DNA from: Tetrahymena thermophila SB210
Taxonomy: Eukaryota; Ciliophora; Oligohymenophorea; Hymenostomatida; Tetrahymenidae
DNA length: 64,000 nt
Direction of reading: 5' to 3'
NCBI RefSeq assembly: GCF_000189635.1
Contig: NW_002476421.1
Span: 124,001-188,000 of the forward strand
The notes under the pieces were generated by a model. It saw only the letters and a program-made list of their open reading frames with translations. It made no database searches and was not told the origin of the DNA. Position 1 is the stretch's first letter, and each line of letters starts with the position of its first letter. Below are positions 12,840 through 64,000 of the stretch, piece after piece. Made by a program: the position numbers and the translations under genes.

Positions 12840-15800
12840 TCAATAAATTAATAAAAATAAATGTTTGTTTACTTATATTTAACTTATTATTTCTGGAGAT
12901 ATTTTGGCTTTTATTTTTTCAATAAACTCAGGATCAAGGAAGCCACCACCTTGAGCATATTTGGCAGCCTCATCTAAAATTTATTAAATATTTTCAGATT
13001 GGAGCATTTCCATTTTTGTAATGTGTCTAAATTCGCTGAACCACTCATGATAGAGACCTATGGCCCAGTTTTCACTTAAGAACTCAGAAATATTTGGAAT
13101 AAGGCCGTTCTTGAAACGCACATCTAATTGGTTGAGGCATTTTTCTGATAAACCTACAAAAGAAACTAGACTTTAAACAGATACAGGTTCAGTGCCCTAG
13201 ATGGAATTAAAAATAATTTAGAAAGTTTTTAACTTTAATTAAAGAGTTTACCAAGTATGTCACTTAATCAATGATTCCATTATTATCAAATTTAAATTTA
13301 ATATAATGTCCAATTTGTTATTTTTGATCAATATTGTCAGAAACAATGTCTTGTCTATTATCCTCTGCCTCCATGGTTTTGCTTGGTCTAGCATAGTCGT
13401 TCTTTTTTATGTGATAATAGAACAAATCTCCTGGTAGGAATGCTCCTATTCCAATTGGCATATAGAGATTTGGAAGTTCTCCCAAGCTATAAATTTAATC
13501 TGTAAGATATCCTAAGTCCAAGCTATCTAAGAGACACTTAGCTAATTTTTGACCTAGTTCACGTCCATTATATCTTATAATTTATAACAAATTAGTTTAT
13601 ATGATATTTTCAAAAATAATTATTACTTGTCTAAACGGAGAGATCTTCCTATAGAAAGCCTCTTGTATCTCTGAGAGAATTCACAGATTTTACCACAACA
13701 AAAGATGTCTTTTTCAGTAGTTTAAAAGTTTGACTTAACAATTAAACGACCATTATATACTAAACCATTTTCGTGAATAATATAAAAGATTTCTTTGTCA
13801 ATATCAACTAAACCTGAAGTTACTAAAAAACGAGATGTAATTTCAATATCATCAAATTTATTTCTTTCTAGTTCTTCTATTTCTTATTCAAGAGTTATTG
13901 GTTGATTTTCTTCATCGCCATCACGACTTTGGGTATCATCAAATCCCTTGTCAGCATTCTCGCTGTTGGCATCGCGCTCTAATATTTGCTATTTCTTTAT
14001 TTCAATTTGCTAAATAATTTCTTCATAATTATCTGCTTTTTTACGGAATACCACTCCCTAACAAATTCTTGTTTCTTCATCAACATCAATTTAATGGAGA
14101 TTGTATCCCTTATGAACTTAGATTCCTTTTGATTCCATAAATTCAAAGATCTTTTACTCAACTGAAGGATCATCGAATGGATCTGGATCGTTGATTCTCT
14201 TATCTTCATAAATTAATCTCTCAGTGTTATTCTTAAATTGAACTTGAGTTTCAAAAACTTTAGGAGGAATAACATAATGAATTCTATTGGGATGTACGCC
14301 ACGATTGACCATACCAGAGATAAAAGCAATAGTGTGCAATGTTCTTCCGTATATAGTAATACTTTGAGGTCTCTTTTTACGAGTCAACAAATCAATGTTA
14401 GAGTCTTTCTTTCCTGTTTTCTTGAATTCTTCGTAGAGGTATGGATCATCTATGCTATAAACACCTTATACGTAATTTCCATAAACAGGATGTTGGCCAA
14501 AAATAGGAGGTGCCCCTTCTTCAATTTATGCACGATCTCTTCCATACTTATCCAAGAGTTGTTAGTAATATGGAGATGAGAATAAACCTGTGGAGATAAG
14601 TCTTCTATTTTATAATTCTGTATCAATTAATCCTACAGTGTTCACCAAGTAATCATAAGGAAGTTCAGCATTTTTATCCAATTTTATCTTTTTGCCCTTC
14701 TTATCTAACTCTACCATTTTTGCATCTAAAACGTTAACTCTTGCATCAAGCATTAAATTTTTTAATTCTTCTAGAGTATAGTTTGTCGATAAAGCCTTTA
14801 ACTAGTCTCCAGGCAGATTAATGTGCATAGTCATAATGCCACCAGGAGCAAGTAAAGTTATGTGAGTAAAATTAATATCCTTTACTGAAAGTAAGCTTTC
14901 TATAAATGAAATGCCTGTATCAGAAGCACCAACCACAACAATTCTTGTATTATTATTAACCTTTACGCTACCTTTATTAATTTAAATATAAAAATTAATT
15001 TTATTTTGAATAAAATGTTTATTAATTTAAATAAAAAAATTAATTTTATTTTGAATAAAATTTTAATTAAAATCAGAAACAAAATTGCAGAAAATAAAAA
15101 ATATCAAGTTAATTAATTTTTTACTCATCATTTTTTTAGTGATGACTGATAAAGAAAATGGAGCTTGTTCTTAGTCAAATGCATCTCTTTTTCCATCTTA
15201 GACTTCAGTTAGGTCTCCAGCACGCTCAAAATGTTCTTTATCATGTTCAAAGTCCCATTTTCTTTTAAGGAAATGTGGGAATTATCTTGCACGAACAAAA
15301 ACTAATTCATTAAATACATCAGGAAGCAAAGTCTTTTCTTGAACTTCGAAATACATGCAAGTCTAATAAAAATTTAATTGAATTTTATTATTTTTATTTA
15401 ATGAGATAATTAAAAATTTACCTTATTCATTAAACGTAATATTTCTTTAAGGATGAACCTAGTGTTTTTGGTAAATAGAGGATTCAAAGCAGTATGGATT
15501 AATTTTGTATGGCATGTCATAGGATGCTCTTTTAAAATTATATGATCTTATACACAGAAATGAGAAATGTAATAATCTAAATTAACGTTCTTAGATACCA
15601 CGTAAATACCAATTAGCTGTTGAAATTCAGAAGAAAAAAAATATTTATATAAAAAATTTTTTAAAAAATTGATTTACCGATTAGTCACAGAAGACAGAAA
15701 ATGCAACTTTTCTAGAAGCAGTTTATGTGATAGCTTCCAAAGTATCATCATATATCTGTTACTTATTAATTAAATTAGAGAACAAGGGAGCAACATATTA

Positions 15801-19469: not shown

Positions 19470-20205
19470 TTACGTATTTTATCACTATATTTAATATCTA
19501 TATATTTATGGCTAAATCTATTATATTTCTTTTTAGAACTAACTCTAAGCCTGTTTGTTCTTTGGAGTGCTTTTCTTTTCTTTTAATTTTTATATGCAAA
19601 TCTCTTAGATAACTAATTACTTCAGGCTATCACTCTGTAATTAATTAATTTATTTATTTATTTTGTATTCAAATTATTATTTTCAATTATAATCATGATA
19701 GTTGTTATCTTTATTTATTTTAATAAATCGTTTTGTTTCATTCATTATTCTCATTTTTTATTATTATTCTGTAATTATTTGGCTACCTATCATTTATTCA
19801 TCATACATACATACATATAATCTATTTATTTATTTATCAATCAATCAATCAATCAATTAATTATAAATGGATTTTTCATAGTTTTATTTTATTTTAATAA
19901 GATTTTTTTTATAGAAATAGCTTTTATCCATTTTTATGATTTTACTTGGAAATTTTTCAATTAAAATAATTTCTTTCTTGACGAGTTTGCCATTTATAAT
20001 AAAATTGCTTAATCTGATTAGATTATTTATTTATTATTAATAATAACTCTCCTTATTCTGAAAGCAATCTGTTCGCGCTCAAATCAAATAAGCTCAAATT
20101 AATAAAGAGTTTCTATAGTAATTTGAATAATTAATTCAAAAAGCAAATTAAAAAATAGGAGAGATAGATAAATAGAAAAAATAGATTAGAGCAGTTGCAA
20201 ACAAA
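19470..20205. promoter_or_regulatory. Divergent promoter region between CFAP61 and HMG gene
   Basis: This 736-bp region separates the CFAP61 start codon (-) from the HMG-box start codon (+), so it must hold the 5' ends and promoters of both. It is AT-rich with short runs of ATTT, ATAC (19810) and AATC (19840). I could not identify specific promoter elements. Confidence 0.5.
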
Positions 20206-22122
20206 ATGGCATTTAGTTCAAAGACTTCTTACTAAATTTATTACGAAGAGCAGTGTAAAATCTACAAGTAAAAAGGTATTACAGGAAATGAAGCTGCTAA
20301 GCTTATAGGAAAATAATGGAGCAGCCTCTCTCCTTAGGAGAAAAAACCATATGATGATAAAAAGAAGGAGTATGAGTAATAAGTATTAAGAGAATAAAAA
20401 GTCATGAAGGACTTTTAAAAGAAGAGCTAACAAGATAATCAACAAGCTAACAATAAATCTAATGCTACTTAGAAAAATGTAAATGATGAAAAACAAAACA
20501 GCTAATAAAAACAAGGAAATATTAAGAAATTTATGAAGGAAGATCTTCAAAAAGAAAAGTAAGATATTCACAAAAAAGTTATTATCAAAAAGGTTGATAG
20601 CTCAGGAAAAGTATTATCATCCAACTCTTAGTAGCCCTAAACTTAAAGTCAGTAATCAGAAAAGTAAAAACCTTCGAATTAGCAGCAAAAAAATACTCAA
20701 GCTAATAAAGCATCTGAGTAAAAGTAATAGAATAATAATAATAATAATCAAAACTCTCAAGAAAAGAAGGTCTAAAAACCAAAAGAGTAATAGCAATACT
20801 TTTAGATGAACAGTGAATAGGAAAATCTTAGAAAATCTAATCACTAAATTTATATTGATTTCTACAAAGAGAGACTTGCTTTTTACTAAAAACGCTTCCC
20901 ATAGAGAACAGCAAAAGAATTAACTCAAGTAGTTAAAGAAGAGTGGGACTGCGTTAAACTGCAAAGTAAAATTCAATAAAAAAATTAAAAAAAAGAAGTA
21001 AAATAAAACAAGGAAGTTTAAACAGTTTAAAAAGAAGGGAAAAAAATAGTTGAAATTGATGGTAAACAATTAGAAGTCCCTAAAAAACCTCTTTCAGGAT
21101 ATCTCAGATACTATTAAGAAGTTTAGCATAAGCTTAAATTAAAAAATCCAGATTAAGCTTAAAATGAAATTGCTAAATTAGCTAGTGATTAATGGAAGGC
21201 TTTGTCAAAAGAATAATAAGAATAATACAATAGTTAATATCGTAAAGAATAATTGGAATATACTAATAAAATAAATGAAATCAAATAAAAATATAATATC
21301 GTACCTGTTGGAACAAGCTAAAAGAAAACTAAAAAGAACTCTAAAAACTTTATTATCGTAGATAACTAAAAAGTTTTCTATCCTTTGAGACTTGGAGGCT
21401 ATTTTGTATATTAAAGAGTTGCCAGGGAACAATTAAGTAAATAAAATCATAATCGTGACTCGAGAGAGATTTCTTCAATTATAGGATAAACATGGAAGTA
21501 GATGTCTGAGCTAGAAAAATAATACTATGAAAATTAAAGTGAAGTTGAATACTAGGAGCAAAAGAAAAACTTTATAGAAAAATATGGAGAGTTCCCTGAA
21601 TAAGAAGTTAAAATAAAGCAAAAACCTAGTTAAAAAATTGAGTAAAGCCAGTCTAAAAAGATTAATCAAAAAAGAAAAGCTCCTTCTTAAAAAGCAGAAC
21701 CAGAAATTTCCAGTGAAGAAAAGGAAGAATAAATTAAGAAAAAGTATGAAAGAAAAATGAGAATAAATTATGATGATGTTGAAAGTGAAATTGAAGATAT
21801 TTACAGTGACATAGAAAAGGATTAAAAGAAAAAATAAACTAGAGTTTAATACCAAGACGAAACAGATCAAGAAGAAGAAGAAGATGAAATTTAAGATCTT
21901 AGAAAATAGAATTTAAACAATAGAACATAGTAAAAAACAGGAAAAGAAGAAAATTTTGATGAAATAGAAAAATAATCTACAAAAAATAAAAAAATTAAAA
22001 CTGAAAAAAGAAATTCTTCTGTGCCTAAACCAGGTTCTGCTTCTAAATAAACGAATCGTTTGTTTGAAATGTTGAAGCAACCTATATAAGCACCAGAAGG
22101 TTTTGATTTTTAATTTGAATGA
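20206..22122 (+). CDS. HMG-box protein with four HMG-like boxes, 638 aa
   Basis: A single exon, 639 codons including TGA at 22120-22122. HMG boxes bend DNA by binding the minor groove, so a chromatin or nuclear role is expected. Box 1 is at about residues 3-60 (YYEEQCKIYKQK ... KQWSSLSPQEKKPYDDKKKEY). A weaker box 2 is at about 212-260 (IDFYKERLAFYQKRFPQRT). Box 3 is at about 291-360 (PKKPLSGYLRYYQEV ... QWKALSKEQQEQY) and box 4 at about 391-460 (LRLGGYFVYQRVAREQ ... TWKQMSELEKQYY). Lys/Gln-rich linkers separate them. The tail is acidic and Lys-rich with possible nuclear signals (KKIKTEKR). Box 2 is the most diverged and could be nonfunctional. Orientation is divergent from CFAP61 and convergent with the MORN gene. 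Confidence 0.93.
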
Positions 22123-50000: not shown

Positions 50001-50229
50001 AAATAACCTAAAAATTATTAACTATTAAAGAAAAATTATTAATTAATTCTTTCTTTCTTTCTATTTTTAGCCAAATTATCTTTTGATGGACAAAAATTTA
50101 TGAAATCTGAATAAATATAATTTAGTTGTTAATTTGTTGGATAGTTATGCGTTATAAACATTTTTATAAGCTAATCTAATCTAAGATAAATTAATATAAT
50201 TAATTAAAATATAAAAAAAAAAGAAAGCT
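47095..50229. other. Long intergenic region with one doubtful ORF
   Basis: About 3.1 kb of AT-rich DNA downstream of the giant gene. Apart from the weak candidate at 47828 I see no coding signal, RNA gene or repeat. Confidence 0.5.
47828..48715 (+). CDS. Possible protein, 295 aa (doubtful)
   Basis: Open in the ciliate code from ATG at 47828 to TGA at 48713-48715. The first 60 residues look genuine (NSDLNEILLKKIHKQADELL; RKILKEHKRAEALSLL). The rest is a Phe/Ile/Lys/Asn-rich string typical of translated AT-rich noncoding DNA. A short first exon followed by an unseen intron is possible. No domain recognised. Confidence 0.25.
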
Positions 50230-51687
50230 ATGAAAATAATTAACAGAAGCTTGCAAAAAAACGAATCAATTTCTCCTAGAAAAACTACTAAGTAGAATTC
50301 TCAGCTGTCAAGACTTGATATCTCTAGAGCCTTTAAACTTAAAGTAGAAAGTACAAATAGAAACCTTAACTCTAGTCTTTCTCCAAAGCAAGAATAATCT
50401 AAAACAAATATACTTTAATAGAAATTAAACTAATGTAGAATCCAAAGTCCTTTAAACAAAGTCCATGATTCTAATTAGTTTTAATTTCATTAAAAATCTA
50501 AAATCTATGGTGAGAAATTAAATAATATAAAAAAAAGCTAATAAGCTGAAAATTAGCTCAATTTGTCGAAACACCAGAGCCTCATTAAGTATGCATCTAC
50601 TGATTATAACAAATATTAATGTCAAATAGAGGAGTAAAAACTTATAAGTGGAAATAAAAAAAGTAAGACTCAGGATGATAATAATTTAGAGAGTGATTCT
50701 GACTCTGAAGAAGTATTTTCAATCTGGAAAGAAAATTAACTTAAAAGTTGTGGGTTAGATACGGATTAATTTATTGATGACAGAGGATAATAATTAGGAT
50801 TTTACTAAATTTACAGACTGCGCTCTGCATTATACTAACCATCGTACGTATCGCGTTTAGATACAATATAAGAAGTGTAAATTCTTTCATAGCATTTTAA
50901 TAAAGAGATACCAATAGAGCTTTTGAAGCAATAACAATTCTATCTTGATAAATATTATGAAATTCAGAAAAAAGATAAAATAAACAACTAAATACTATAG
51001 AAATAACTTAGTAACTAAAATTTTAAAGGTTTTACTTAAAAATGTTAGACTGAAAGACTTTATAGGCCAACATCTTCATAAGAATAAAATAAGATTACTT
51101 CTACTAAATTAAAATAATAAATTAGTTAATAGCTAAATTTGAATGAAACAAATCGAATTTAAAAAGAGAAAAGCAATATTATCTAAAATTAATCAGAAAG
51201 AATGACAAAAAAGATGTAAAACAAGCAAATTTAGAAATAAATAGGCAAAAAAGCAAATGATATAAATTAAGAATACCAACATTTATCATAATAATACAAA
51301 TCTAAAAGAAGACAAAAAATTAGTATAGACTAAGAAGAAATTTAAAAATTCATATAAAACTAACCCATCACTGATAAAAACATTATCTCATAGGATGGTG
51401 ATGAAGATACAAAAATTGATTAAAGTTTTGATAATACCTCTATAATATCTAATAATAAACATAGCCTTTCCAAAGACAATAATAATTCTACTAAAATATA
51501 AAATGAAGAAATAATATAAAATATTACAGAAACTGCAAAATCAGTACTTTCTTACCTTTAAAAAATAGTTTCTAATCAAACAAATTAAGGTTAATAATTA
51601 TTTTAAAATAATAAATTCTTTAACTTGACAGATAAATTTATGAGTTATTAATCAAATAAATATGAAAATCATAAATAGCGAAATTGA
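50230..51687 (+). CDS. Unrecognised basic, Gln-rich protein, 485 aa
   Basis: A single exon from ATG at 50230 to TGA at 51685-51687, with no internal TGA over 485 codons and many TAA/TAG glutamines. The N-terminus is basic and Ser-rich (MKIINRSLQKNESISPRK). An acidic serine cluster at about residues 155-165 (ESDSDSEEVF) looks like a casein-kinase-2-type site. The middle is the most ordered part (YQIYRLRSALYQPSYVSRL; QHFNKEIPIELLKQQQFYL). The C-terminal half is low-complexity Gln/Asn/Lys. There is no signal peptide or membrane segment. I do not recognise the family. Confidence 0.75.
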
Positions 51688-52879
51688 ATTTTATAATAAA
51701 AATTAGATAACTTAACCTATTTATATACTGCAATTTTTCTACAGTTATGTACTCTATTTCGGATATTTTTTAATTATACTATCATAATTTTTTCCTCATT
51801 CAAAAAAAACCTTTGGGTTTTAATTAAAATTTTGTCTTAATTTAGAAACTAAGATCATATATATTTATTTTTATATACAATGATTTATGATTTTTAAAAA
51901 TTAAAAGGTTTCACTATCTTCTATTCTACAATTTTTGGTAAAGAATTATTAATAATTATTCATTTAATTTTAAAGTAAACGAAATTTTATACTCAAGTTT
52001 TTAAGAATTATGAATACAATTTTTGATCTTTGAGAATTAAATAGTTTAGCTCTCTTGTAAATTTATGTAAAGAACAATCAATTTGTTTTAAATAAAAAAA
52101 TGAGCCAGTAAATTTTAATTGATTCTTATTGAAACAACTTTTATATTGAAGAAATAAACTTAAGTTTTTTTTTGAGCTTTGAATTAATATTAAGATTCTT
52201 AATAGAATTCTAAAACATTTTTTAAGTACATTTTGTTTGGATATAAGAATTAGTAAAAATGATTCTAAAATTCGAAGTTTATTGTTTATTATTTGTTTTA
52301 ATAAGTAATTTATTTTTAAAAAAACAGAACTAATTTTAACTAGTAATCTTAGATTACTATTTCAATCACACTTATTGTTTAAATTTACAGATTACATTAA
52401 TCATCTAATTTTAATGTATCATTAAATTATTTAATTCCAAATAGTGAAAGAACCAGTTTTTTGAAAACAAAACTAGATTAAGACATAATCTTATTATTAA
52501 ATTTTTCTAAATATAGATCCATCATAAATTATCACAACTTAACATAAAACCTAAAATTTGCTTTTATAAATAATCATTATTACCACATCAGTTTTTCTTA
52601 AAAAATTATTTCTTTTATTCACAGCAAGTATTATTTATTAAATAAATTATTGGTTAAATTATTTATTTAAATAATTTTTGTGTAGAAAATAAATATATTT
52701 TTACATTTTATTAATATTAAATATCTAATTACTATTTAGAAAAAAAATATATCTTAACTTTGTTTTATCATGAATTTATTTAGGTTTTATTTATATAATA
52801 CATTTAAGAAATAGGTGCACTAACCAAAAATATTACTTCTTTCAAAATAGTGAAATTTAATTTTTTTTCTACGAAGCTT
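51688..52879. other. Intergenic region, no gene seen
   Basis: AT-rich DNA between the last large gene and the left unit of the segmental duplication. No supported feature. Confidence 0.55.
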
Positions 52880-53810
52880 AAATTTCCCTAAAATAATAAA
52901 AATTGCTATCCTACACTTTTTTACAATATATGGTAAAATATAATATATTTTTTAAATTATATCTATAAATAGATTTCAATTAAATAGAATAAATAAACAA
53001 ATAAAATAAAAAAATTTATTATTCTTCTTAATCTAAAATAAATAATCTATCAAAATATAATTTCAATTTTAAATTGATGAATGGGAAAATCATGTAAATT
53101 TTCTTAAGATTAATTAATAAGAAGAAACTTACAAATTCTTTTTAATAAATTGAAAAATTTACTCACCATAAAATTAGACTTATTCAAGTACAGTAGACTT
53201 ACACAAATTTATGTATAAATTTAAATAATTACTATCCATAAATAGAAAAGAGCTACATAGCTTTACGAACAGATTTAAAAACATAGGCTTTCTAAATTTT
53301 TGATAATCAAATTAATTGGTTTTACATTTTTTTAGATATTATGAAATATTTCTTACACTCAAATTTAAAAAATAACTATCATATTACTTCTTAAAAAAAT
53401 TATTAAATACTTAAATTTTAATGGAGCAAAATCCTTTTAAAAGCTACTCTATATTATAAAAATATTAAAATCTTACTTTAAAGATGATGTTATCCTATTT
53501 GCTTTACATTTTGATTTTATATTAATAAGATCAGCCAGTCTTTTAGCATCGCAAATTATTTAAAAAGAAAAGCTCTAAAATTTAAGATACAATCCATAAT
53601 AACTATAATAAAAGTAAAAAAATAATTATAAATATATTTAATATCATTTCTCTTACTTTAAATATTTATTTTTAATTATTTCGCTCAGAATAATTTGAAA
53701 TTATTTTTATTGAAAAAATTATCTTTAATTGTAATTTTTAAAATATAATATATTTCTTAATTTTTGAAAATATATTCACTAAAGTACAATTAAATAAAAT
53801 CAATAATAAA

Positions 53811-53928
53811 CAGGGTCTAATAAAATAAAAATCATGTGAAGGTGTTTTTTGTGTTTTTTTTTGAAATAAGTTGTCAAAAAAAAATTTTGATAATTTTAAT
53901 GAAAATACTCCCATGTTTTTAGACCCTG
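53811..53928. mobile_element. hAT-like miniature inverted-repeat element (MITE), 118 bp
   Basis: The element begins CAGGGTCTAA and ends with the exact inverse, TTAGACCCTG, giving 10-bp perfect terminal inverted repeats. The flanking 8 bp are ATAATAAA (53803-53810) and ATTATAAA (53929-53936), 7 of 8 matching, as expected of an old 8-bp target-site duplication. CAGGG termini with 8-bp duplications are typical of hAT superfamily transposons. The interior is AT-rich and noncoding. The equivalent site in the right duplication unit (about 58440-58465) lacks the element, so it inserted after the duplication or was lost cleanly there. Confidence 0.72.
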
Positions 53929-54105
53929 ATTATAAATGAAGAAAATAGTTTGGGCTAAGAAGAGGGGTATAATTCAAAGTAATAAATTTTAAAATATATT
54001 AGTAAAATTAATAAGCTCATTAGCTAGCTTTCAAATTTATAAATAATAAGCAATATTAGCCATGTAATATGTATTTAACTAATATTAGCTAATATTTTAT
54101 TTTAG

Positions 54106-54361
54106 TGGCAATGAAGAAGAATATTAAAATATAGAAAGAAAACAATTTCATGATAGTGGAAGTAACTATCCATCAAACTAAATTGAAAGTTATTTTTATT
54201 AAACATCTTTAAGATCTGCTAAATCAAACGAAAAAAATATAAATTTAAAATAACTAAAAGAAATAGATAGAGAATTTAAACTAGCTATTAAAAAAAAAAA
54301 AAATTACAAAAGGAAAATAAAACTACCAAGATAAAAGATATTAAATATTAACCTATTTTGA
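54106..54361 (+). pseudogene. Coding-like exon or gene remnant, left copy
   Basis: After an acceptor-like TTTTATTTTAG the frame reads about 84 residues of plausible Lys/Glu/Gln/Ser-rich protein (RKQFHDSGSNYPSNQIESYF; EKNINLKQLKEIDREFKL) to TGA at 54359-54361. The right duplication unit keeps part of it (58939-59141), altered. I could not find a start exon, so it may be the last exon of a small gene or a decayed gene. No domain recognised. Confidence 0.35.
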
Positions 54362-54999
54362 GAGAATACATTCACAAAATTGTTTTTTAACAAGTACAAT
54401 AAATTGAAAAAGGCAACATTAGATATTATTAGTTTTGAAAAATAATTTAAATAAAGCTAAAGATTTAGTTCAAATAAAATCAATCTTAAACTTTTATATT
54501 TATTTACTAAATAAAATTTATATTAGAAGTTTAAAATATTATTAAATAGATTTTTCATTCTAATCTAAAATTTCTTTAAATTATATAACGAAAAACAACT
54601 TGATATCAATTGTTAAATATATATTAATCTATATTATAATTCAATGATTTATTTTACTGAATTTACTCTCTATATTTTTTCTAATTTATAACACAATTTT
54701 ATGTTTAAATAACAAAAAAATTATAATTAATATTCTGATGATTTCTATTTTTAAGTGATTTTAAGATTTATTTACATAAACCTTAAATTTTTCAACTATA
54801 AATTCTCTCCATTAAAAATGTAATCTAATTTGAATATGGAAAGCAAGATAAGATTAAGAAAAGTATTATAAATCTTCAAAATTAATGTAAATAATGATTT
54901 TTTGGTAATATAGTTATTTATATCCTATATAAATATTAAATAAATTCAATGCCTCATTTTAAAATAATGAACAAATAAAACTGATTGAAGAATAATTAT

Positions 55000-55075
55000 T
55001 TTCTTCATATTCATCTTATTTTTTGTTTTAGAAGGTTTATACTTCACTGTTTAGTAGGATGTGCTCTTCAAAATT
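55000..55075 (-). pseudogene. Decayed fragment of the 1576-3625 gene, left copy
   Basis: The minus strand reads a diverged copy of the KSASDQTMKQKPTKTKKQ region of the gene at 1576-3625 (here KSTSYQTVKYKPSKTKN). A lost A in the following A-run then shifts the acidic tract out of frame. The fragment is orphaned. Confidence 0.7.
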
Positions 55076-56116
55076 TTGCTTTTAATCTTTAGAAGAAATT
55101 TTTTTAATTTAAAATTCTAAGAAATATAGAATTCAGAACAAAGAAATTTTTATTATTATTGGACATCTTATAATTATACCAAATCCCTCTTCTTCCATTT
55201 TTTGATTTATATTTTGTAAGAAGTTGGTAGAGAGAGGGACTATTAATTAAGTAAGATAAAACTGAGTTAAATTTCTTTTATATAAATCTTATTAAAATAG
55301 AAGAATGTTTATACTTTCAGGATTTTTAATGCTAAAATTTATTAACTATTATATCTAATTACAGTAATCAATGTAATATAATAGAGAATAGAATTTATAT
55401 GATCAGTCAAATTACTTTATATTTTATGCGCTAATTAATTCTGACGTTAAAAAATATGAGAAAAAATAAAGTATTATGTGTTAATATTATATTTAAGATT
55501 ATTTTAATCTGCAGACTTTAATATATTAAAAAATCTTTGCAAATACTTTAAATGAAATAAATATAAGTAGCATTAACAAATAAACTAACTAATTATTTAT
55601 TTTATATAATAAAATTATTTATGATCACTAGAATTGGTTGGGTACTGGGATAAATAGTCACTTCAATCAATTATTATTATGCTTTATTTACATAAGTTAA
55701 TTAAGATAAAACGATATTCAAAGATAAATTTTGAGCTAAGTGCAGGATTATATCTAAAAATTATATTAACAAACAAATGCTTGAAATTAATTAATAAAAT
55801 CTGATAAATTATATTATCATTTACGACTTATATCTATTTCACTGTATCAAATTTCTGTTTTCTATATTAATTTTCAAGATCAACAAATAATAAATTATTA
55901 AGTTATTGATTAATTAGCTATTTAAAAACTTACAATCATCTATCAGAATTTAATAAAATTCAAAAAGATTAAGTTAGTTTAAATTGGAGGAATTAGAAAT
56001 CAAACTTTTGTAAAAATAAAAAAACAAAACATATTAAAAAATATCTTTACAAAAGATCATATTAACTTGGTAACTACTAGCTTGAGAGAAGATTAAATTT
56101 TAAATATACCTCTTGT

Positions 56117-56818
56117 ATGACAAACAATAATATCCAAAATAACTTTTTTAATCATAATAAAACATAATAACAAATAATAAACAATCTTAATGGTGAAATT
56201 ATGAGTTATGATTTAGACTATAACCAAACATAATCTCTTTTACTAATTCAAGCCATTTATGAGTAAAATGAAATATAAAACTATTAATAATCTTAAGATT
56301 TTCAAAATCAAAACTTTTCTCTTGATTTAAGCTTTGAGGATTATAAATCATTTAGTGAGTTCCCAAGCCTATGTGAAATAGAATAAAACCAAAAAATTGA
56401 AGATGATGAAGAAATGTTTTATATTTGCAGTAAGGATGATCTTTATGAAATAAATAACTTAATACCATTTGATGAATTGAAATACTAATTAACTCATATA
56501 TAAAATGATATTATTGCTCAAAGAAAAGGTGAACTTATAAACTAATAAAATTAATAATAAAAAATAACAAATAATCCCTACATTTAATTTGAATAATATA
56601 AGATAGAAGGTAGTAGGAATAATATACAGTCTAATTAAGAGATTAACAAAATTAGTCTATAAATTATAAATTAATATAAAGAAATAAAAGAAACTGAAAA
56701 CTTTTCATAATTCAACTAAGATAATTAAATTTAAATTAAAAGAACTATAATTTTATTTATTTAAATGATGATGATAATAATAACAATATCTTAGTTTTAA
56801 TTCAATTAAAAAAGATGA
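56117..56818 (+). CDS. Small Gln/Asn-rich acidic protein, left copy, 233 aa
   Basis: A single open frame from ATG at 56117 to TGA at 56816-56818. It starts MTNNNIQNNFFNHNKTQQQ. A conserved acidic core (NFSLDLSFEDYKSFSEFPSL; EDDEEMFYICSKDDLYEIN; FDELKYQLTHIQNDI) is shared with the right copy at 61088. The rest is Gln/Asn-rich, and the last 25 or so residues (FIQMMMIITIS) look like read-through of noncoding DNA. Preservation of the core across two diverged copies suggests it was coding. Function unknown; no recognised domain. Confidence 0.6.
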
Positions 56819-56910
56819 AATTTTAAAAAACTTTAATAATATTTTTATTTTTAAAGAATAACTTAAAAATGTAAATCATTTTTGATATAAAATATTTTTA
56901 TATTCAATTT

Positions 56911-57149
56911 TATAGTTTAAAAAATTAATTTGATTAAAAAATAAAGCAAAATGCCATTTAAATAAGTATATTTGTTTTTAATTAATTACTTGTTTAGCTT
57001 AGCTAAGCTAGGTAGAAACAAGAAAATTCAAAAAAGTAATTAAATTTAATTGAATAAAAATAAATAATATAAAATGAGACAAAATGCCCCACTGAGAATA
57101 AATAAAATTATTTTTTAGATTGGGTCTGGAGTGGATTCAGATGAAAACA
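56911..57149. other. Junction between the two duplication units
   Basis: About 240 bp of AT-rich sequence with no clear counterpart between the units. It contains the inverted motif TTAGCTTAGCTAAGCTA at about 56996. No gene. Confidence 0.4.
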
Positions 57150-58938
57150 GCTTAAATTTCTGTAAAATGTTAATAATTGCTATCCTGAACTTTATATACA
57201 ATATATGTTAAAATATATTATATTTGTTAAATTATACCTATAATTCGAGTTCAATTAAATAAGATAAATATTTACATATGATAATTAAAAACATTGTATA
57301 TTTTTAGGATAACTTAGAAAACAATAATTTTTTGAATAATTAATCACCTAAGCTGATCTATTATAACATAAAGTAAAAAAGTTGATTATTCTTATTAAGC
57401 TAAAATAAATAATATCTCAAAATATAATTTGAATTTTAATTGATGAATGGGAAAATCATGTAAAATTTCTTAAGATTAATTAAACAAATGACTTACAATA
57501 ACTCTTTAATAAACAGAAAAGATTACTTACCATAAAATTAGACCTAATCAAATAGAGGAGACTTACACAAATTTATGTATACATTTAAATAATTACTAAA
57601 CATAAATAGAAATTAGTAACATAACTGTATGATCAGATTAAAAATTTAGACTTTCTAAATTTCGATAATTAAATTCATTTATTTTACATTTTTTTTGATA
57701 TTAAGAAATATTTCTTACATTTAAATTTAAAAAATAACTATTATATTAGTTACTCAAAATATCAATAATTTAAAATTTACTTGTAGATAATAAATATATT
57801 ATAATATGTAAAATATGTTAATGATTGACAAAGTCAAATTTGATAATAATATCATTACAATTATGAAAATAAATCTTACAATTTTAGAGTAAAAATTATA
57901 TTGTGAAATAAATCTTTTTTGGGATAGATTTTTAGAAGAAAAATTTAAATATGAAGTCATTAATTACTGAGCTATTTTATTGTTAAGAATGCAAATTAAT
58001 AATCTTAATTTAACTCTAAAAATTTCACATAAATTTATTTAAAAATGTCTCAATATATCCCTAAAGTAATAAGAGTTACTTTAACTACAGCTTAAATTAT
58101 GCTACTTCCTTACATAATTATTAAATACTTAAATTATAATTATTTGTTTTACATTTTGATTTCCTTTAATTAAATCAGTTAGCCATTATCTCTACAAATT
58201 ATTTAAAATGAAAAGTTCTAACATTAAGATACACATACATAATAATATATTATAAATGAAAAAAAATAATTATCAATAAACATATTTAATATCATTTCTC
58301 CTAATTTAAATACATTTAATTATATCACTTAGAATAATTTGAAACTATATACAATGAACAAAATCTATTTAACTCTAGTTTATAAAAAATAATATATTTC
58401 TTAACTTTTGAAAATATATTCACTAAATTAATTAGTAATTAAGTAGAATTAAGTGAAAAATATAAATGAAGAAAATAATTTGGTATAAGAATAGGAGTAA
58501 TATTCAAAGCAATACATTTTAAAATAGATTCATTAGCATTTGCTTATTAGTTCACTTTCAAATTTATAAATAATAATCAAAATTATCCATTTATGGATTT
58601 AACTAATATTAGCTATTAATTTTATTATAGAGGTAATGATGAATAATATTCAAATATAGGAAGAATATGATCTCATAAATAGCGGAGGAATTAGTGATAA
58701 ATATATTTACCTTAGAGTTAATTAATTATAGTTTTATTAAATATTTCGACTCTGTTCAGCTTTATATTTAAATCCTATTTATCTAGTTTAAACTATGTTA
58801 AAGATGTTTTAAAAATTCAAAAATTTTTAAATAGCCTAAAAAGAACAATAAATTTATCTTGATTTTTTTAGTTCTAAACAAAAAAATACTTAACACAAGT
58901 TTCAGAAAATGTATTAAATAATCAAAATTATTATCTAG

Positions 58939-59141
58939 GAAGCCTAATTGAAAGTTATTTTGAATAAGCTTCTTTAAGAACTGCATCAAATGAAAAAAAT
59001 AAAAATTTAAAATTATAAGAAAATAACTTAAAAAAATATATAGAAAACTTAAACTAGCTAAATAAATATAATAAGAAAATAATAAAATATATTCTTAAAG
59101 TTAATTTTAAGTAATATTAATATAATATAACAATTATTTGA
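58939..59141 (+). pseudogene. Coding-like remnant, right copy
   Basis: Matches the 54106 block from IESYF onward (SLIESYFEQASLRTASNEKN) after an acceptor-like TTATCTAG, ending at TGA 59139-59141. The upstream part of the block (58625-58680) is separated from it by about 250 bp absent from the left unit and carries a TGA, so this copy is disrupted. Confidence 0.3.
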
Positions 59142-59944
59142 AAAAAAATTATTTTATAAAAGGAAAACATGATAATAATTGTTAGCATTTTTTGAAAAAA
59201 TTTTATCACTAAATGTGTTTTTAACAAGAGTAAAAATTTAAAAAGATAACATTAGAAATTAATTGATAAATAAAGCTAAGGATTTAAAAGATCATATTTT
59301 TATTTTAAAATTAAACAAACATAATGATTTTTGAAAATTAATCAATCAAAACAAAATTTAGATAAAAAAATGTTTAAAGTATATTGAATTCAACTAAAAT
59401 CAATCTTAATTTTTTATATCTCTTTAATGCATAGAATTTATATAAGAAGTTAAAAATATTATAGAAAAGGTTTTTGCATTTTAATTTAGAAATTATTTAA
59501 ATTATGTAACTAATAATAACTTTATATCAGCTTTTAAAAATATTAATTTATATTATAATACTGATAAATACTGTTAACTTCAATATTTTATTTTACTGAA
59601 TTTACTTTATATATTTTTTATAATTTATAACATTATTTTGTTGTAATAGCTAAAAAAATTATAATTAAAATTCTGATGATTTCTTTTTTTTAACTAATTA
59701 TAAGATTTATTTACATGAAATATAATATTTTTCGATTCTAAATTCTCTCCATTAAAAATGAGTCTATTTTAATAGATAAAGTATAATAAGATTAAGAAAA
59801 GAATTGCAAATCTTCACAAAAAATATAAATAATGATTGTTGGGCAATAAATTTATTAATTTCTTAGATAAAAATTAAATAAATTCAATACTTCATTTTAA
59901 AATAATAAAGAAATAAAGAAATATAGTAAAGAAGAATATTTATT

Positions 59945-60015
59945 CCTCGTCATCTTCAACTTATTTTTTTGTTTTATTAGGTTTTTACTTTGTTGTTTAA
60001 TCAGATGCACTTTCT
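59945..60015 (-). pseudogene. Fragment of the 1576-3625 gene, right copy
   Basis: The minus strand reads ESASDQTTKQKPNKTKKQVE followed by a short acidic run, closely matching SASDQTMKQKPTKTKKQ plus the DEDDD tract of the gene at 1576-3625. Similarity stops on both sides within about 40 bp. It is better preserved than the left copy and still in frame. Confidence 0.75.
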
Positions 60016-61087
60016 AAATTTTGTTTTTAAAATTTTTGAGGAAATTTTAAAAATCTAAAATACTTATGATTAAATTTAGAGAGACACTTTAATTATAATA
60101 GGCCACCATACAATTATACCAAACCCCGCTTCTTACATTTTTTGATTTATATTTTCTAGAAGTTGGCAGAGAGAGAGAAAGGGACTATTAATTAAGAAAA
60201 AAATGAGTTAAATTTCTTTTTTACAATCTTATAAAGCTAGATTAATATTGATGTTTGTTGAATTTTAAATACTATAATTTATTAACTATTCTATCTAATT
60301 ACAGTAATCAATGTAATATATTAGAGAATAGAATTTATATAATCAGTCAATGATTTTATAATTTATGCGTTAATTAATTCTGAATTTTAAATATGAGAAA
60401 GAGCAAAATTCAATAATTATATTTAAGTAAAATAAAATTATTTTAATCTGTCGATTATGATAAATTTTTAATATATTAAAATATCTTTGAAAATATTTTA
60501 AATATGATCAGCATTATCAAATAAACTATCTAATAATTTATTTTATATTGAAAAATTATTTATGGTCACTAGAATTGGTTTGATACTTGATTAAATAATC
60601 ACCTCAATCAGTTCTTATTACACTTTATATACATAATTTAATAATGATAAAACGATAACTCAAATAGAAATTTTGAGAAAGGTACAGGATTATTTCTGAA
60701 AATTAGATCAACAAACAAATGCTTGAAATTAATTAATAAAATCTATTATTATTTACGGCTCATATCTATTAACTTATTTCACTGTATCAAATTTCTGCTT
60801 TCTGTATTAATTTTCAAAATTGTAAAGATAAGACAAGTAATAAAATATTAAGTTAGTGACTAATAAGCTAATTAAAAGCTTACAACCATATCAGAATTTA
60901 ATAAGATTCCTTCTTAAAAAATGATTAAGTTCGATTATATTGCAGAAATTAATAATAAAACTTTTGTAAAAAATAAAAAAAAAACAAAAAAATTAAAAAA
61001 TAACTAATCAAAAGATAATTATAACTTGGAAACAGTTTGATTGAGGATAGGTTAAATCTTGCTTTTAATTTTAAATATACTACTTAT

Positions 61088-61573
61088 ATGACAATCAATA
61101 ATATCCAAAATAACAATTATAATCATAATAAAATATAATAACCAATTATAAACAATCTTAATGATGAAATTATTAGTTATGATTTAGGTTATAATCAAAC
61201 ATAATTACTTTAACTAATTCAATCCATTTTTGAGTAAAATGAAATATAAAATTAATAATAATCCAAAGATTTTGAAAATCAAAGTTTTTCTTTAGATTTA
61301 AGCTTTGAAGATTATAAATCTTTTAGCGAGTTCCCAAGTCTATATGAATATGAAGAAATAGAATATAACCAAAAAGCTGAAGATGATGAAGAAAAGTTCT
61401 ATATTTGTAGTAAAGATAGTCTTTATGAAATAAATAACTAATCTTTTGATGAATTAAAATACTAATTAATTCATATAGAAAATGATATTATTACTCAAAG
61501 AAAAGATGAACTTTTAAACAAAGAAAATAAAGAATAAATAAATAGTAACAAATAATCCGTAAATTTAATTTGA
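61088..61573 (+). CDS. Small Gln/Asn-rich acidic protein, right copy, 161 aa, truncated
   Basis: Paralogue of the 56117 ORF, sharing MTxNNIQNN, SLDLSFEDYKSFSEFPSL, EDDEEKFYICSKDSLYEINN and FDELKYQLIHIENDI. An indel in the AT-rich stretch after the core shifts the frame, so it ends at TGA 61571-61573, about 70 codons earlier than the left copy. Homologous DNA continues downstream but in another frame. It is probably a partly decayed copy, or the core alone is the functional part. Confidence 0.5.
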
Positions 61574-61910
61574 ATAACATAAGAGAGAAATTGTTATGAA
61601 TAATATACCATCTGATTAAGAGATTAAAAAAATTAATCTATAAAAAATAAGTTAATACAAAGTAAATAATAGAAACTGGAAATTTTTCATTATTCAATCA
61701 AGATAATTAAATTTAAATTAGAAGTACAAATATTTTAGTTATTTAAATGATGATGATAAAAACAGCGATATCTCACTTTGAATTCAACTAACAAAAATTA
61801 ACTTAAAATATATGACCATATTTTTATTATAAAAAAATATAATAACAAATAAAGAATAACTTAAAAATGTAAATTATTTGTATATAAAATATTTTTGTTT
61901 TCTATATAAG

Positions 61911-64000
61911 TGTTAAAAATAATAATTTTATTAAAAAAATATATAAATTATAATAAAAATTGGGTATTTTAAGTTTTTTATTCTCATAATAACAATAATA
62001 ATCTATTAATTTAAATAATTTGATAAAATAATTATTTATCTATGTTTGTAAAATAAATATCTAAATCTGAACTATTATTTTTAGACATTTATTTCTTTGA
62101 AAATCATAATAATTCTAATTTAAATTTTTTGAAGACTAAAGATTATATGGTAATTATTAATCCTTGAAAATTTATTAAAGCTTTAATTTAACAAAAAAGT
62201 AAAAAAAATTTCTATCTATTTAGAAATGTTAAATAATTTAATCTTGGTAAGCGATAAAATTAACATTCGATTGTCTTTTTTATTTTAGGCTATAAATATA
62301 AATAATAAAATATTTTTCTTAATTTATGAAAAAATAAATCGATCTATCTACTATTTACTAACTTTTTAAATAGTTTTTTACTCTCAATACCATATTTTCT
62401 TGCCAATAGATTCTAAAAAAATATACAAAATAATCTTTTTATTTTCTTTCTTGTAACATAGAAAAAGTGATTAGAATTTTCCATATCATTTTTAAAAAAT
62501 AAATAAAATAATCTAATTAATAGATAAATTGATTAACCAAATGTGTTTTATATTTTAGTTTAAAAAAATATATAAAATAAAATAATTTTGAATATTTATG
62601 AATACATATCTATATACTGTAGAGTAACTCTTTATATAATTTACTTTCACTACTATGCTTTCTCTCCTATAGATTATAAAAAATTACTATTTAGTGATAA
62701 TTTCTTTTTATTTTCATTCATGTAACAAAGAAAAGGGTGTAACTTAGAACTTTCCATGTATTTTTTTCATTTTACAGTTAAAATAATATGAGTTAAAATT
62801 CTATTAATAATTAAATTATAAAAACAATTAATTTTTTCAAATTATCTCATTTCAATTTTTAATGATTTGCGATATTAAGAAATTATCCAAAAAAAATATC
62901 ATTTGTTCCAATCTTATAAATAATTCGACTAATTAAATTGATTTAAATTTTTTATTATAAAATATGATTATTCTCACTTATATTTTAAATGAAATCTATT
63001 ATTAACCACATTAAAAATACTTTCTTTTCACTTTAAAATTTTTAAATTGATGTTATTTATTTGAATTATATATTTAGAGTAATAATTTGGTGTTGACTAT
63101 ATAATTATGTTATTATATTAATAAAGCTAAATATCTTAAATGTTTATAATTAACCTAAAAACTAAATTAACAAAGAAATATATCTAATGAATATCATCCT
63201 AGATGCTTCAATAGAAAGTTTTTGATTAAATTTTCATAATTATTTTTGAATTATTCTGGTTAGAAAGTACAATATTTCTATTGTTTTTTAATTAGGATAG
63301 AGTTTCTATTTTTCTATATATAAAAAGCAAAAATTTATATTATGGTATTTGCAGAAAAGGAGATAAAATTATAGTTAATAACAAAAAGACCAAATAATAT
63401 TAATGTTGTAAATTAATTTTCTAACTATAAAATTAACCTAAATTCTAAATATTGATACTCTACCAAATTATATTAATATTGTAATAATGCTTTTAAAATA
63501 CTAATTTAAAATAGCTTTTTAAAATTATAAAATATGTGTTACTTTTAATTATATATTCTATAAGAATAAATTATATTGTTAATATTTAATTTATTTTTAG
63601 AAGTATTCATATTTAATAATACCAAAATATAAAATTCATAATTTAATTAGAAATACCTAACATATGACCACATGTTTTTATTGTGAAATTTGGTATGGAA
63701 AAATTAAATTAGTATAAAACAAAAATTTAATGAAAAGCGGAAAACTTGATAACTTATCATTTTTTTTTATAACTTCAGTATTTTTTTTATGGATATTATA
63801 TTTTGAGCTTAATTTCTTAAAAATCTAAACGAAATTAGAAGAGGCAAGTAAATAATTGATCTATCGATTAAGACTTAATCAAATTTAATTAAATTAAAGT
63901 TTACTGAAATGAATACTGTTTTAATTTTGGGAATATTTACAATTTTAACTCACTAATTTTAAAGATTTTCTTACGCTTAAGAATGTCCTACATTTTCTAG
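61911..64000. other. Gene-free AT-rich region to window end
   Basis: About 2.1 kb with no supported ORF, tRNA, telomeric (C4A2 type) repeat or clear repeat structure. Confidence 0.5.

Follow-up and report, generated by a model that had tools for sequence, protein, structure and literature searches.

In Tetrahymena, most transposon sequence is removed from the macronucleus as internal eliminated sequences (as described in parts of PMC5182062), and about 1 Mb of putative transposon sequence stays in macronuclear DNA, sometimes with a bias to element termini (parts of PMC5182062 and PMC5666084). Retained transposon DNA, which an earlier note on the present locus had held to be unusual, is thus not unusual in itself, given the ~1 Mb reported in that portion of PMC5182062. 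The closest described boundary signals are flanking G-rich sequences of the Lia3 type, at which cut positions vary once LIA3 or the tracts are lost. In the M element, each cut has an A5G5 tract 45-50 bp outside it, and the G side of the tract points to the eliminated DNA (from a section of PMC4780704), and deletions affected by Lia3 show a G peak 40-60 bp outside the deletion ends (from a section of PMC6547420). A transposon origin of the flanking sequences, or of the proteins that bind them, is put forward as speculation in passages of PMC6547420 and PMC6698652. The locus described here touches on this question, that is, on what fixes the edges of the thousands of deletions in Tetrahymena and on where the boundary sequences come from.

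The window is the whole stretch of DNA that was analysed, 64,000 nucleotides of the Tetrahymena thermophila SB210 macronuclear assembly (C126:124001-188000; 101,022,631 bases in 445 contigs). Read with the ciliate code, its long frames stay open, and the ciliate macronuclear setting given to the element in the earlier note holds. Telomerase exons of the assembly, located with PF12009, are the same over long stretches as the Tetrahymena thermophila telomerase solved in PDB 6d6v. Elsewhere in the window, a frame at 13260-15626 (-) is similar to part of cilia- and flagella-associated protein 61, and a protein with three HMG-box stretches is encoded at 20062-22122 (+). The element itself spans 118 bp, and both its perfect 10-bp inverted ends and the flanking 8-bp repeat with seven of eight matching positions, as the earlier note had claimed, are directly seen in the following features.

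53803..53810, no strand: left 8-bp target-site duplication, ATAATAAA, 7/8 matches with 53929-53936
53811..53820, + strand: left terminal inverted repeat, CAGGGTCTAA, whose own GGG ends at 53815
53811..53853, + strand: left-end segment, 43 bp, common to the solo left ends at C17:1545396 (L015) and C194:150057 (L029)
53833..53851, + strand: left subterminal motif, CATGTGAAGGTGTTTTTTG
53853..53854, no strand: candidate excision junction, where left-end and right-end segments abut, placed from pairwise alignment limits to within a few bp
53854..53928, - strand: right-end segment, 75 bp, common to the solo right ends L011, L051, L052 and L053
53910..53912, - strand: right-end G-run, AAAAACATGGGAG when read inward; the GGG of the left inverted repeat faces it at a distance of 94 bp
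53919..53928, - strand: right terminal inverted repeat, CAGGGTCTAA
53929..53936, no strand: right 8-bp target-site duplication, ATTATAAA, 7/8 matches with ATAATAAA
58425..58467, no strand: element-free site in the sister duplication, from the alignment of the two units

We suggest, with a probability of roughly 0.65, that these 118 bp are a scar left by a hAT-like transposon of the germline, its body having been removed as an internal eliminated sequence, and not a MITE. hAT transposons have short terminal inverted repeats that start with CAG or CAGGG, and they make an 8-bp target-site duplication. At this locus CAGGGTCTAA stands at both tips with a CAGGG start, and the flanks ATAATAAA and ATTATAAA agree at seven of eight positions, a target-site duplication known from this one locus; 8-mers at the spacing of the element match equally well at 59 of 14248 AT-rich places sampled in the window. 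The hAT dimerisation domain PF05699 is found at seven places in the genome (G000; C46:63539, C112:137994, C184:1042138, C131:115117, C445:12206, C8:22042 and C31:37450), three of them with a TGA stop inside the domain, and these places are either old transposase remnants or domesticated genes. None of the seven lies on the same contig as any of the listed end matches, and the one that was read, the C46 place (L061), has no end match of note. Because of this, membership of the element in hAT, judged from its end sequence and 8-bp flanks, is likely and not proven: in the name hAT-like, given in the earlier note, the end and target signature stands, and no transposase could be linked to these ends. 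The element also does not fit the coding-region eliminated sequences of the piggyBac kind, which have TTAA flanks and CACTTT ends in the relevant part of PMC5182062.

The element lies in one unit of a tandem duplication, in which blocks within 52875-56941 match blocks within 57149-61938 with 79% identity in the longest block and an offset of ~4.5 kb at the element locus. That the paralogous site lacks the element, as the earlier note had proposed, is also a direct observation: on the right, the flank of the empty site can be aligned as far as the target repeat (53931 with 58461), while ~30 bp on the left side are diverged and align poorly, so that the site is clean on one side only. With units this similar, the insertion would most simply be more recent than the duplication. 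The sister unit has two stretches of its own, at 57779-58140 and 58687-58945, with ~290 and ~240 bp that have no counterpart in the first unit and that are possibly further insertions or deletions. A frame at 50134-51687 and one in the sister unit (58045-59172) have a protein motif in common, as judged by eye, which suggests more tandem copies of one gene, and a direct repeat of ~300 bp with 71% identity is found at 62194-62493 and 62462-62765.

Since short AT-rich matches are common at the G+C content of the window (17-28% in 2-kb steps), the two facing ends might be thought an inverted repeat that arose by chance. The 101 Mb contain 42 occurrences of CAGGGTCTAA (20 + 22; 9 + 12, or 21, for the reversed control), which gives an expectation of ~0.0009 facing pairs within 200 bp, and no other exact facing pair at similar spacing was found genome-wide with either 10-bp or 7-bp ends, in searches that copies with altered ends escape. 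The 7/8 target repeat flanks the element, moreover, and six related ends elsewhere back it. We therefore reject chance, which is contradicted by the related ends and would be very hard to believe, and these ends together with the sister alignment rule out that the 118 bp are merely unalignable AT-rich DNA. Pairs of CAGGGT at longer spacing were found at three places (control, two) and resemble chance.

The related ends are solo ends. Stretches of 6 kb (one shorter) were taken around all 40 other exact matches of CAGGGTCTAA, and at three of these 40 the similarity extends into the element, L015 and L029 as left ends and L011 as a right end. The three score 18-20 beyond the 10-bp repeat, where the next site reaches 11.5 (left) or 13.5 (right), and for each of them none of 500 single-base shuffles attained its score. 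DNA search added a further right end, L051 on C419. A degenerate pattern made from those ends matched six places (seven for its control), three already known and three new, and two of the new ones were accepted as right ends: L052 with 35.7 bits and L053 with 30.0 bits under an R2 model built without them (E 2.8e-9 and 1.8e-7 in 322,581 bases, values that should be read as ~300 times larger because the two loci were picked from the whole genome). Directly seen outside the window are thus six solo ends, two left (L015, L029) and four right (L011, L051, L052, L053). The pattern matches L054 (12.2 bits), L055 and L058 (16.5 and 14.5 bits), and L056 and L059 (10.4 and 7.3 bits) were not accepted, nor were L057 and L060, which are absent from the model matches. 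A separate right-end-like match of the R2 model, weak and without an inverted-repeat tip, lies in the window at 13823-13863 (+; 16.8 bits, E 0.0027 in 322,581 bases).

The earlier note had called the element a MITE, and a true hAT-type MITE would be an internally deleted copy, mobile in the germline as a unit of 118 bp and kept for being short and in macronucleus-destined DNA. Copies of it would multiply in the germline. The two perfect ends, the near-perfect 8-bp target repeat and the empty sister site all suit such an element, and its length is typical of MITEs. However, a MITE does not lead one to expect what the remainder of the genome holds. Other copies with the same termini, which the earlier note had in mind, exist in the macronuclear assembly as the six solo ends, and DNA and exact-pair searches of that assembly, which could miss copies with changed ends, found no second clear two-ended unit. 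When the L052 and L015 ends were used as DNA queries, each returned only itself. The missing partners were also sought with filters off in 1.5-1.6 kb per solo end (628 bases each, the whole loci, for L052 and L053): L015 and L029 gave no right end beyond a match that overlaps their own inverted repeat, and L051, L052, L053 and L011 gave no convincing match to the left end. The best case for a worn second copy is L052 on C65, where a weak left-end-like match at 417-450 (7.8 bits, with E 0.008 for the 1256 bases searched) lies ~134-167 bp in from the right end and could make L052 a two-ended copy ~170 bp long; this match is probably near noise, because matches of the same kind in L051 and L011 reach 7.2-7.7 bits.

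Where the similarity of the ends stops bears more directly on the choice between these readings. In pairwise local alignments, the similarity of the window's left end reaches window base 43 with L015 and base 40 with L029, and between L015 and L029 it reaches bases 47 and 50. For the right end, similarity between the window and L051 extends to window base 72 (base 75 of L051), and that of L051 and L052 runs through bases 73 and 71. Both solo left ends (40-50 bp) and two of the four solo right ends (71-75 bp) thus stop close to the meeting point of the left and right segments in the window. The other two right ends stop earlier, L011 at 47 against L051, and L053 at ~57 against both the window and L051. 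Some alignments run on through AT-rich sequence, those of L052 with the window, L011 and L053 to bases 108-145 and that of the window with L011 to 70 and 86, and we take these extensions to be spurious, a judgement with no test behind it. As similarity stops at 40-43 bp on the left and at 71-75 bp on the right, and 43 + 75 = 118, the two segments in the window appear to abut with little or no extra sequence between them.

These directly seen offsets weaken the MITE reading, in which the short two-ended unit is real: a MITE does not predict that similarity should end near the meeting point in the two solo left ends and in two of the four right ones. Taken with the lack of a second clear unit in the macronuclear assembly, they leave a MITE rather unlikely in our view. 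Ordinary germline deletion might also be proposed to have removed the middle of an old full-length element, the solo ends being ordinary products of decay. The ends are indeed diverged, as in AAGGTTCTAA of L051 and CAGGATGTAA of L052, and L011 and L053 do stop at other offsets (~47 and ~57). However, random loss would predict neither agreeing break offsets at several loci nor the G-runs that face the break across four of six solo ends (see below), and we regard this account as improbable. Elimination that cuts inside the elements is the simplest account, since it covers both a single unit made of two end segments and solo ends with similar stops. If so, a larger germline insert would be expected at 53853/53854, and the junction would have been made by programmed elimination.

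The spacing of G-runs at the family loci, again directly seen, resembles that of known boundary signals. At the right ends a G-run follows A-rich sequence with its G side inward, and its distance to the assumed break is 56 bp in the window, 54 bp in L051, 58 bp in L052, 40 bp in L053 and 25 bp in L011; the GGG of the left repeat lies 38, 45 and 47 bp from the assumed break in the window, L015 and L029, respectively. On the opposite flank, a CCC (a G-run toward the break) occurs at 41-53 bp in four of the six solo ends (L051, 41 bp; L029, 44 bp; L053, 51 bp; L015, 53 bp), with none in L011 and L052, and a GGG occurs in none of the six. The background for such an opposite run is 2.1% of 21276 AT-rich positions with a local G+C of at most 22% (L029 itself has 24%), and CCC or GGG was found in 0 of 37 non-family end sites with the break set at base 50. 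The four of six holds when the break is shifted by 5 bp and becomes two of six at 10 bp. With no break assumed, facing G-runs 80-110 bp apart make up seven pairs in the AT-rich sequence examined, five of them at family loci, and those facing away make up one. Facing GGG runs lie 91-98 bp apart at five of the seven loci of the transposon-end family (91, 98, 91, 95 and 94 bp), whereas 7 of 210 non-family G-runs in AT-rich context have a facing partner at 80-110 bp; the latter count used a slightly different G+C filter and may count a pair up to twice, and the two rates are not fully alike because family loci hold more than one G-run each. Probabilities attached to these counts are guides only, because the tests were framed after the sequences and papers had been read. 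The G-runs of the window are GGG only, and an A5G5 tract is absent there. Genome-wide, exact AAAGGGG...CCCCTTT pairs spaced 80-110 bp apart show no enrichment (one, with three in the control), in a search from which the published M-type pair is missing as well, since its sole match is not an A5G5 pair. Outside the family, facing GGG runs in AT-rich DNA were noticed 86 bp apart in L033 (near 2266) and 96 bp apart in L034 (near 398), and these two places are candidate elimination junctions of other origin.

This spacing fits elimination boundaries, which counts against a MITE. We propose that a hAT-like DNA transposon entered one unit of the tandem duplication in the germline, making the 8-bp target duplication, and that in each new macronucleus the body of the element would be removed as an internal eliminated sequence by cuts inside it, ~43 bp from the left tip and ~75 bp from the right tip. 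The two tips would stay and be rejoined into a 118-bp scar that resembles a MITE, while other genomic copies would leave one tip only. Because the G-runs in the tips face the removed part at the distance known for Lia3 signals, the transposon ends probably help set the positions of the cuts, and the G-runs may themselves act in this positioning. It is possible, as a tentative extension that we would not favor on sequence data of this kind, that the subterminal G-runs and end repeats of a hAT-like transposon serve as boundary signals of its own somatic elimination, with the cuts positioned inside the element. If this were true, some of the sequences that flank and regulate eliminated DNA in Tetrahymena would be fossil ends of transposons, and each generation would keep them in the soma because they guide the removal of the remainder. 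An insertion with both ends, a target repeat and an empty sister copy, together with six solo ends, is a concrete family in which a transposon origin could be tested.

A literature search that did not extend to supplements with lists of eliminated sequences returned nothing specific on hAT elements in Tetrahymena and no paper that was recognised as dealing with this transposon-end family. The locus is like hAT-superfamily MITEs in its CAGGG-starting ends, 8-bp target duplication and short unit, and unlike them in that neither a multicopy 118-bp unit nor a linked hAT transposase was found here. MITEs are likewise discussed in the DNA elimination of another ciliate, Blepharisma, but there, by the title and the start of the abstract of PMC9942856, they lie in germline DNA that is edited out, whereas the sequence described here stays in the soma. 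As in the part of Hamilton et al. 2016 (PMC5182062) that concerns DNA transposons, the termini stay and the remainder is absent from the macronucleus. In contrast to the aggregate bias given there, a single locus here combines both ends with a target duplication and an unoccupied sister site, and the family's solo ends hint at the offsets of the cuts. Retained termini are therefore known already in general terms, and the new part is that the ends carry the geometry of boundary signals. With the A5G5 tracts of the M element and the Lia3-dependent sequences (in the sections concerned of PMC4780704 and PMC6547420), the family has in common facing G-runs on both sides, at five of seven loci and 91-98 bp apart, and the single G-run distances are 38-58 bp here, except for 25 bp in L011. 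Unlike those sequences, the G-runs here are part of a transposon end on one side or both, and they often consist of GGG only.
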